A DNA stretch of 64,000 nt from Nitrosopumilus sp. LS_AOA (lineage in GTDB: Archaea > Thermoproteota > Nitrososphaeria > Nitrososphaerales > Nitrosopumilaceae), in assembly GCA_001543015.1 (NCBI GenBank), contig LFLC01000025.1:124001-188000 (forward strand). Reading direction: 5' to 3'. Within the stretch, counting starts at the first letter, position 1. Each line of letters begins with the position of its first letter. The position numbers and the translations under genes were made by a program. Under the pieces are notes generated by a model that was not told the origin of the DNA, made no database searches, and saw only the letters and a list, made by a program, of their open reading frames with translations. Below, one piece after another: positions 3,141 through 34,311 of the stretch.

Positions 3141-3148
3141 TATATATA
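3141..3148 (+). promoter_or_regulatory. TATA box of the MIP18-family gene
   Basis: TATATATA is centred about 25 bp before the ATG at 3169, the spacing expected for a leaderless archaeal transcript. It supports that ATG over the upstream in-frame ATG at 3136, which would be read through the promoter itself. Confidence 0.6.
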
Positions 3149-3168
3149 GCATCGACGCTTTTTCGGAC

Positions 3169-3492
3169 ATGAGTCAAGACATTAAACAAATGCGAGTAAA
3201 AATATTCGATGAGTTATCAAAGATTGTAGATCCAGAAATTAACACATCAATTGTTGAATTGGAATTAATTGATGAAGTTGATATCAAAGACAGTAATGTC
3301 AAAGTAGATTTACATCTTACCAGTCCATTTTGTCCAGCAGTATTTGGTTTTAAGATTTGTCAAGATGTCCACGATAATTTATTGAATGTGGATGGAGTTG
3401 ATGATGTTAAAGTAAATGTATCAAACCACTTTATGGCAGAACAGATTAACAATCAAGTAAACAATAGTCCAAAACCAAAAAAACTGGGTTAA
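3169..3492 (+). CDS. MIP18/DUF59 family protein (iron-sulfur cluster assembly)
   Basis: A protein of about 107 residues with the DUF59/MIP18 fold. It starts with the helix leading to IVDPEIN, followed by the strand-rich core and the SPFCPAVFGF segment, whose Cys sits where SufT/MIP18 proteins often carry one. Family members help assemble or target Fe-S clusters, or act beside Mrp/ApbC scaffold ATPases. That role is from the family, not shown here. The tail is Asn/Pro/Lys-rich. The stop overlaps the end of sdhB, which is convergent. The fumarate reductase/SDH complex next door is rich in Fe-S clusters, so the context fits. Confidence 0.8.
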   Translation: MSQDIKQMRVKIFDELSKIVDPEINTSIVELELIDEVDIKDSNVKVDLHLTSPFCPAVFGFKICQDVHDNLLNVDGVDDVKVNVSNHFMAEQINNQVNNSPKPKKLG

Positions 3493-4256
3493 CTTCTAAA
3501 ACCTAACAAATATCCTCTAAGGAGTTGAATTCCCATAGCAGGGTCAACACCTTTTGGACATACTTGACTACAAGAGCCAGCAAAATGACATCTCCATATA
3601 CCATGAGATTCATCAATAATTTTGAGTCGAGAATCTTTTCCCTTATCTCTACTATCTGCAACATATCGGTATGCCTGAGCTAATGCCTGAGGTCCTACAA
3701 ATGAAGAATCTGTTGCCATCGTAGGACATGCTGAATTACATAAACCACATTTGATACAATTAGCAAATTGGATGTACTGTTCTACTTCTTCAGGGGTTTG
3801 TAAAAATTCTCGTTCGTCAGTTTCAAGTTCTGTATCATCTCGAATAAGATATGGTTTAATTTTTTGATGAGTATCAAATAATCTTTCAAACTTTACTGCC
3901 AAATCACGAATTATTGGAAAATTATTCATAGGTTCAACTGTAACAACATTAGAGTCTAATTCACTAATTTTTGTAAAACATGCTAATCTTGGTTTTCCGT
4001 TAATCATCATTCCACATGAGCCACATGTTGCTTGTCTACAAGAATAACGAACTGCTACTGAATGATCAAAGTGTTTTTTGACTTCAAGAATTGCTTCAAG
4101 AACTGTTGTCCACTTTTCATATGGAACAGTAAATTCCATAAACTTACTTGAATCATCATGTTCAGGATTATATCTAAAAATTTTTAGTGTGATTGATTTT
4201 GATGAGGAAACTGGTGTAGATACCTGCTCTTCTGCAATATGAGATACTAGTGCCAT
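3489..4256 (-). CDS. sdhB: succinate dehydrogenase iron-sulfur subunit
   Basis: Passes electrons from the flavoprotein to the membrane anchors in complex II. All cluster ligands are visible: [2Fe-2S] Cys at about 73, 78, 81 and 93; [4Fe-4S] CIKCGLCNSACP at 167-178; and the [3Fe-4S] site CHFAGSCSQVCPKG at 223-235. The 255-residue length is normal. It is the last gene of sdhA-C-D-B, three bases after sdhD. The third cluster lacks a fourth Cys, as in SQR/QFR-type enzymes, so this is not the extended-cysteine archaeal SdhE type. Confidence 0.93.
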   Translation of the reverse strand: MALVSHIAEEQVSTPVSSSKSITLKIFRYNPEHDDSSKFMEFTVPYEKWTTVLEAILEVKKHFDHSVAVRYSCRQATCGSCGMMINGKPRLACFTKISELDSNVVTVEPMNNFPIIRDLAVKFERLFDTHQKIKPYLIRDDTELETDEREFLQTPEEVEQYIQFANCIKCGLCNSACPTMATDSSFVGPQALAQAYRYVADSRDKGKDSRLKIIDESHGIWRCHFAGSCSQVCPKGVDPAMGIQLLRGYLLGFRS

Positions 4257-30789: not shown

Positions 30790-30930
30790 TATCTATTCCC
30801 AATAAGTAATGTAAAAACAAGTCAATAAACTAGATTATTTTAAAATAAAAATTTGTTTATGAAATTAATAATTTTTGAACAAGTGTTTAAAATATTATGA
30901 TCTAAAATTAATGTTAGTTTCACGTATTGT

Positions 30931-31045
30931 ATTTTAGAAAGCTGATACAATATCCTATTGTCTAAATACATGGTGATTATTTACCAGTCTGAGCATACTA
31001 GCAGGGCTGTGTAAAGGTTATTCCCCGTTAGTCAGCTTTCAAAAT
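30931..31045 (+). ncRNA. candidate structured RNA 1
   Basis: Closed by GAAAGCTG (30937-30944) with CAGCTTTC (31033-31040), extended outward by ATTTT/AAAAT across one bulged A. Inside are hairpins ACAAT-loop-ATTGT (30947-30961), TGGTGA-TTAT-TTACCA (30971-30986), and ACTAGC/GTTAGT plus GGG/CCC (30997-31032). G+C is higher than in flanking DNA. TTTAAAATAT at about 30884 could be its TATA box. The strand is a guess; a 5' leader of the DUF72 gene is the alternative. Confidence 0.45.
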
Positions 31046-31092
31046 TTTCTACTAATTTCAAATTTAAAAATAGAGGTAATTTACATTTCATC

Positions 31093-33294: not shown

Positions 33295-34311
33295 ATGAAT
33301 AGTCTTTTAGATGATGTTAATGCATTATTAAAATTAAAACAAGGAGACCTTGGGCGACTAGAACACATCAAAACAACACTTGAATCAAGAAATGTGTTAT
33401 ACATTTCAGATACGAAATATCTTCGAGAATTAACTAGAGAATATCTTGAGGACCGCAAGGGCCAAAGATTAGAAAGATTCAACTCTTATGATTATCCCGA
33501 ATATACAAATCGATTAAAAATTCCTACATCTGAAGAAGAGAAAGAGGCTGAACAAATGGCTAAAAATTTGAAAGAAGTTGATGACACATCTGGAGATGGG
33601 AAAGAATCTAAACAATTGGCTAAAAAGTTGAAAGAATTTTGGACCAAAGAAGCTGAACAAATGGCTAAAAATTTGAAAGAATCTGGAGAGATATCTGGAG
33701 AGATATCGGAATATGTAAAAAAACCAACACCAGAAATATTAGATTCAAATAAAAATTATTTTTGTGGTAATTGCGGTAACACGATTAAAAATGAAAATTT
33801 TTGTGTTAAATGTGGTTCTTCACTACACATAGTAGAGAAAGAAGAAAAACAATATGATGTCAGATTCAGAAAAAATCAACCTCAAGAAAATAGTACTAAA
33901 AATGAAGCGAGAATAAGTGTTAGTACATTAGTAATTGTAATTTTATTTGGTGTAATCATTGTTGGAGGTATTGCTATGGGAGTAAAGATTTTAGGAGAAA
34001 ATGAAATTCAAATTGATAGTGTAATTGAAGCTACACCAGTAATAGTTACCATACCTACAATTAATTCAGAATCTGATTCTAAATGTGGTGAAGGACTTGT
34101 ACTTGATAAAGTAAGTAATCAATGTGTGTTAGAAGGAAGTAAAATTGCTGATGAAACTCATTCTAAATGTGGTGAAGGACTTGTACTTGATAAAGTAAGT
34201 AATCAATGTGTGTTAGAAGGAAGTAAAATTGCTGATGAAACTCATTCTAAATGTGGTGAAGGACTTGTACTTGATAAAGTAAGTAATCAATGTGTGTTAG
34301 AAGGAAGTTGA
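33295..34311 (+). CDS. zinc-ribbon membrane protein with tandem Cys repeats
   Basis: 338 residues. A cytosolic N-terminal part (1-135) has a repeated KEAEQMAKNLKE helix. A zinc ribbon follows (FCGNCGNTIKNENFCVKCGSS near residues 155-177) and one TM helix (about 207-228). The outer segment is built from a 28-residue repeat present 2.75 times (residues 262-338), each with CGEGLVLDKVSNQCV. The repeats are identical at DNA level (84-bp unit, 34078-34308). The stop codon overlaps the archease TTG. Function unknown. Confidence 0.72.
   Translation: MNSLLDDVNALLKLKQGDLGRLEHIKTTLESRNVLYISDTKYLRELTREYLEDRKGQRLERFNSYDYPEYTNRLKIPTSEEEKEAEQMAKNLKEVDDTSGDGKESKQLAKKLKEFWTKEAEQMAKNLKESGEISGEISEYVKKPTPEILDSNKNYFCGNCGNTIKNENFCVKCGSSLHIVEKEEKQYDVRFRKNQPQENSTKNEARISVSTLVIVILFGVIIVGGIAMGVKILGENEIQIDSVIEATPVIVTIPTINSESDSKCGEGLVLDKVSNQCVLEGSKIADETHSKCGEGLVLDKVSNQCVLEGSKIADETHSKCGEGLVLDKVSNQCVLEGS
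34078..34308 (+). repeat. 84-bp perfect tandem repeat, 2.75 copies
   Basis: Copies run 34078-34161, 34162-34245 and a partial 34246-34308. All compared bases match, including third codon positions, which points to recent expansion or continued homogenisation. The array encodes the extracellular Cys repeats and ends exactly at the start codon of the archease gene. Confidence 0.95.

Follow-up and report, generated by a model that had tools for sequence, protein, structure and literature searches.

The gap that precedes the DUF72 gene in the window, a stretch of 64,000 nucleotides of the Nitrosopumilus sp. LS_AOA genome, raises the question of whether it harbors a gene for a structured RNA and, if so, which function this RNA might have. 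A multi-stem fold enriched in G/C had been predicted in this A/T-rich gap, and both properties were recovered at that position: the segment folds with -31.6 kcal/mol compared with -20.5 +/- 3.2 for shuffled sequence (z -3.5; 2 of 200 shuffles were equally stable), its G+C content is 0.37 versus 0.18 upstream and 0.20 downstream in the rest of the gap, and the opposite strand folds more weakly. The segment was delimited as a predicted free-standing RNA gene of about 110 nt, the features of which are compiled in Table 1.

Table 1. Features assigned to the RNA locus (positions refer to the window).
Feature	Positions	Strand	Basis
RNA: P1-P2-P3 three-way junction with A/T-rich 3' tail	30937-31047	+	covariance matches in 108/250 family genomes; pair counts
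Promoter-like block: GATC (30899-30902), A/T-rich box (30903-30914), CGTA (30923-30926)	30899-30926	+	shared among copies
P1, 5' strand (GAAAGCTGAT)	30937-30946	+	pairs with 31031-31040
P2 hairpin ACAAT-ATCCT-ATTGT plus C; proposed antisense (seed) segment	30947-30962	+	hairpin conserved; 16-nt DUF5679 complement
P3 long arm: 30972-30994 with 31001-31024; apical loop 30995-31000	30972-31024	+	20 pairs
P1, 3' strand (GTCAGCTTTC)	31031-31040	+	pairs with P1 5' strand
T-rich tail (AAAATTTTC), probable terminator	31041-31049	+	T-run in A/T-rich tail after P1 in most copies

Homologous intergenic regions of Nitrosopumilus and related genera support a structured RNA in this gap, the predicted fold of which is kept by means of compensatory changes. 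Among 12 close homologues, 35 pairs are formed in 99.0% of the cells, with values of 98.3% for P1 and 100% for P3, where four pairs carry two-sided compensatory changes. The alignment of 99 homologues, which was fitted to the covariance model and hence is biased towards it, revealed such changes in 28 of the 35 pairs, including 8 of the 10 pairs of P1; it contains 358 two-sided cells and has a covariation score of 0.403, as compared with 119 and 0.219 in shuffles, and none of 500 shuffles reached the observed values. The same three-way junction was obtained independently by RNAalifold when 30 diverse copies had been aligned with MAFFT by sequence only, with compensatory changes in 16 of 31 pairs. 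Since G-U pairs are frequent, the RNA was assigned to the forward strand.

The conserved architecture deviates from the original prediction in several respects. The closing helix, described as 9 bp long, is conserved with 10 bp as P1, whereas its 5-bp A/U extension (ATTTT/AAAAT) is not kept in relatives and probably represents promoter and terminator sequence. Among the internal hairpins, ACAAT-ATCCT-ATTGT is real and constitutes P2, but TGGTGA-TTAT-TTACCA displays no two-sided change, its pairs are disrupted in relatives and its bases belong instead to the 20-bp arm P3. The four-way junction built with the latter hairpin was therefore rejected in favor of a three-way junction. A pseudoknot between the CC of the P2 loop and AAAGG was also dismissed, as only one side of it is altered in the g33 RNAs.

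By nucleotide search, 11 further Nitrosopumilus genomes were shown to contain the segment, with conservation of the homologues stopping at the end of the RNA. A covariance model based on 12 sequences (R1) yielded matches in 82 of 250 Nitrosopumilaceae genomes, and a model based on 99 matches (R2) in 108 of the 250. Many genomes contain one copy, as does that of LS_AOA, and others contain up to five. Among 300 genomes of the order, the covariance models provided nothing convincing in other families, the only hits being those in G403 (E 0.015) and G317 (E 0.23). A search of Rfam 15 with the RNA revealed no family above the gathering threshold (best permissive match E ~2), and the Rfam scan of the window detected six tRNAs only and nothing at the RNA even at permissive thresholds. 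Likewise, our literature search found no description of such a structured regulatory RNA in Nitrosopumilaceae, no existing Nitrosopumilus sRNA and nothing on DUF5679. The RNA thus almost certainly represents a new, often multi-copy family of structured RNA genes in Nitrosopumilaceae.

The size and junction shape of the RNA loosely resemble those of several known RNAs, so that a divergent SRP RNA, RNase P RNA, tRNA-like RNA or C/D or H/ACA guide had to be considered. This identity is highly improbable in view of the missing Rfam match, as the SRP and RNase P genes were located elsewhere in the genome by covariance matches (G000:C57 and G000:C52, respectively), as were the six tRNAs of the window, and inspection revealed no RUGAUGA C box or kink-turn. 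A guide function was rejected, since no Rfam guide family reached the threshold and ANA is not consistently present 3' of the P3 arm.

Three genomes (L142:1952-2064, L143:2528-2635 and L144:4737-4844) harbor a paralogous form of the RNA that differs in its outer stem (GAAGACAGA...TCTGTCTTC). It is located 0.4-2.7 kb away from the copy linked to DUF72 and is inverted relative to it; several genomes devoid of the main form contain the paralogous form only.

The copies of the RNA share an upstream block consisting of GATC at about -37 to -38, a T-rich TATA-like box near -28 and CGTA near -13. Of 63 non-redundant copies, 27 have GATC followed by the TATA-like box (mean of 0.2 and maximum of 2 upon shuffling), and the block retains a fixed distance to the RNA in unrelated gene contexts; in LS_AOA, the usual CTTTTTATTT of the box is replaced by an A/T-rich variant. 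A general promoter of stable RNAs was rejected, as the block is absent upstream of the tRNA, SRP and RNase P genes of the LS_AOA genome. A motif search with up to two mismatches (27 genome searches) placed most matches just upstream of an RNA copy; the extra matches inspected carry no RNA according to the model and look like chance occurrences rather than other genes with the same promoter. Judged by sequence alone, the RNA therefore has a promoter of its own and, with the T-rich tail, a probable terminator, as do archaeal intergenic sRNAs.

The original prediction had placed the RNA before the DUF72 gene; this position holds, but the neighbor turned out to be incidental. A cis-acting riboswitch or leader of DUF72 would be consistent with most Nitrosopumilus copies, in which DUF72 has the same orientation as the RNA and starts 22-67 nt behind it. 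However, the intervening sequence is A/T-rich and TATA-like, other copies adjoin many different, unrelated genes in both orientations, and the RNA is intact where DUF72 is decayed by a lost start, stops, frameshifts, truncation or internal deletion (L010, L013, L059, L062). Since the RNA outlasts DUF72, a riboswitch was rejected and a cis-acting role is judged very improbable; the RNA is almost certainly encoded by a free-standing gene. Decay of DUF72 occurred several times within Nitrosopumilus. Two further observations were made: several divergent RNA copies (L085:~3147-3600, L080, L093, L126) are followed, at a distance of 100-154 nt, by small stand-alone genes for Lrp/AsnC ligand-binding domains (79 aa plus ~176 aa), and an ORF at positions 33295-34311 (+) of the window specifies a motif resembling a zinc ribbon and, at the C-terminus, three copies of CGEGLVLDKVSNQCVLEGS (KIADETHS) in tandem.

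The varied loci, the up to five copies per genome and the 10-bp inverted repeat at the ends might also point to a MITE-like mobile or repeat-derived element. This explanation has very little probability, given that LS_AOA carries a single copy, that copies within a genome are diverged with pairing kept by compensatory change, that the internal arm P3 is conserved and a promoter block is present, and that near-identical copies with target-site duplications within one genome were not seen. An origin from viruses or phages was likewise rejected: 17-nt pattern matches in virus contigs yielded no score with the model, a promoter-plus-RNA pattern was absent from them and no phage match was obtained.

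The search for a partner of the free-standing RNA yielded one candidate in the same genome. Codons 1-6 in the mRNA of a DUF5679 zinc-ribbon protein of 47 aa (G000:C25:9330-9345; matched start AUGACAAUAGGAUAUUGUGUAAAAUG) are matched by the P2 hairpin ACAAUAUCCUAUUGUC, which is antisense to them over 16 nt without a mismatch. This is the best antisense match at any gene start of the genome, it spans exactly the P2 hairpin, and the duplex extends to 18 bp with one G-U pair, the stability of the hairpin itself being just -1.7 kcal/mol. Although the target was identified post hoc, its duplex value of -32.0 is the best in comparison with 78 gene starts of the 64-kb window (next -27.2; 4 of 2000 shuffled targets were equally good), and its co-fold gain of -11.4 is the best in comparison with 75 such starts (next -7.1), these 75-78 starts forming the background of the ranking. 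The 10-mer GGATATTGTG is rare outside the RNA and DUF5679 starts in the 0.9 Mb examined, with one unrelated match among the 30 matches listed. Similar stretches of 17-20 nt on contigs C47 and C67 were judged to be chance matches, being mostly repeated coding sequence in sense orientation.

Leaderless mRNAs are common in archaea, and CTAATA, a TATA-like sequence located about 25 nt upstream of the ATG, suggests that the DUF5679 transcript is leaderless as well. In L200-L224, this region also comprises a strongly conserved AACAAGTTCTCGCTAATAGAACCT with an AGTTCT...AGAAC palindrome flanking the CTAATA, which is a possible operator. A DUF5679 paralogue starting with ATGACAATAGGATATTGTG was moreover noted in L129 (G162), where it shares the strand of an RNA copy located at a distance of about 1 kb.

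Based on these complementarities, we consider it moderately probable that the RNA acts as a trans-acting antisense sRNA that base-pairs with the DUF5679 mRNA. The 5' strand and loop of the weak P2 hairpin, which read ACACAAUAUCCUAUUGUC in the majority of relatives, would pair with nucleotides about 3-20 of the mRNA (AUGACAAUAGGAUAUUGUGU...), thereby masking the 5' AUG and the first codons of the apparently leaderless transcript from the ribosome and repressing DUF5679 translation, while P1 and P3 might serve in RNA stabilisation or protein binding. Bacterial plasmid kissing-hairpin antisense RNAs of the ColE1/CopA type are encoded in cis, opposite to the target strand. The present RNA resembles them in that the stems of its hairpin ACAAU-AUCCU-AUUGU and of the potential mRNA hairpin ACAAU-AGGAU-AUUGU are identical and the loops complementary, but its gene occupies a chromosomal locus different from that of the target, and the DUF5679 mRNA is not predicted to form this hairpin in its minimum-energy fold.

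The proposed pairing can be compared with the codon usage of DUF5679. In all 41 relatives treated as RNA-bearing, which as related genomes are non-independent observations and include one target sequence (G108) with the appearance of contamination by a g1 genome, codons 2-5 read ACA ATA GGA TAT with invariant third positions, and codon 6 is TGT in 39 of the 41. Codons 7, 9, 10, 11 and 13 vary freely, and later in the gene Ile is mostly encoded by ATC, Gly by GGC or GGT, Tyr by TAC and Thr by ACC. Among 16 relatives in which no RNA, or none of full length, was detected, ATA GGA TAT is mostly kept and TGT is found in only 7. The two sets were separated by hand, and a few genomes (e.g. G034) have only a weak RNA match. 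Part of the codon constraint accordingly has another cause, because RNA-less relatives mostly keep ATA GGA TAT. The DUF5679 search found nothing but a paralogue in G016, G028, G035 and G110, and no match in the fragmented, 96%-complete assembly of G011, where the seed is degenerate.

Complementarity to the separately encoded DUF5679 mRNA is conserved in g1, g24, g25, g31 and part of g36, with coordinated changes in some cases. In the distant genus g36, GGC and TGC replace GGA and TGT in DUF5679, and the RNA sequence ACGCARUAGCC of G238, G240 and G253 fits the respective target GGCUAUUGCGU, giving two compatible positions. The g36 RNA scores -23.4 on the g36 target and about -14 to -17 on those of g1, g24, g25 and g31, the RNAs of which reach -11 to -13 on the g36 target; it also scores -21.7 on g33 targets, and specificity is therefore not absolute. 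A parallel change at one position was detected in G083 (RNA ACGC, target TGC), and some g36 RNAs retain the antisense segment with a mismatched 3' side of P2. G146 has an uncompensated mismatch to its target, and positions of the P2 loop vary in the RNA without a corresponding change in the target.

P1 and P3 are as conserved as P2, and an internal loop and the apical loop (NUAC) are conserved too, which DUF5679 pairing does not explain. This conservation would fit a structural or protein-binding RNA, i.e. an RNP scaffold or a protein-titrating RNA, for which the DUF5679 complementarity would be coincidental or secondary. Moreover, g33 and one g36 subgroup have lost this complementarity and retain the fold: the RNAs L106-L110 (g33) and L280-L285 (g36: G246, G239, G247, G243, G252, G248) keep P1 and P3 and contain a different P2. 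This loss therefore means either re-targeting, which these RNAs have possibly undergone, or that DUF5679 pairing is not the ancestral function. We nevertheless regard a structural or protein-binding role with incidental complementarity as unlikely, though it deserves more weight than the alternatives discussed above, since the target codons 2-6 are invariant and atypical and the change in g36 is compatible at two positions.

With respect to known systems, the antisense reading places the RNA closest to the archaeal trans-acting sRNAs. These include sRNA162 of Methanosarcina mazei, a single-stranded linker of which pairs such that the ribosome binding site is masked (PMC3510493), as well as the intergenic sRNA154 and sRNA41 (review PMC5867862). 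The present RNA shares with them the intergenic location, the structure and its own promoter (PMC3510493, PMC5867862), along with the proposed repression of translation by pairing close to the start of an mRNA from another locus. In contrast to sRNA162, its pairing segment is a weak hairpin, and the initial codons of an mRNA that appears to be leaderless would be covered by it. It furthermore differs from sRNA162, sRNA154 and sRNA41 in belonging to a different phylum and in being multi-copy, and no sequence or structural homology to them was found (no Rfam match). Tan1 of marine Euryarchaeota, the structure of which was proposed from a comparative alignment, is also a structured ncRNA of marine archaea, but it comprises 229 nt and belongs to another phylum, and the main text of that report apparently describes no such RNA of Thaumarchaeota (PMC5069720). 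The closest kind of RNA is accordingly the archaeal trans-acting sRNA, and the present RNA does not belong to any family of PMC3510493, PMC5867862 or Rfam.

If targeting of DUF5679 is true, DUF5679 is expected to be the top target in the genera with ACACAAUAUCC, and if re-targeting is true, the leading target in g33 and in the divergent subgroup of g36 is expected to be a different conserved mRNA. Nitrosopumilaceae count among the most abundant marine ammonia oxidisers. In a broader and more tentative reading, to which we assign slightly less than an even chance, the RNAs may constitute a new family of multi-copy antisense sRNAs in ammonia-oxidising archaea. These sRNAs would pair with the first codons of an apparently leaderless mRNA and thereby silence it, would leave a nucleotide signature in these codons and would have changed their targets in some genera with the rest of the RNA kept. 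The covariance model allows published transcriptomes to be re-read, and the family offers a direct test of how sRNAs can control leaderless mRNAs.
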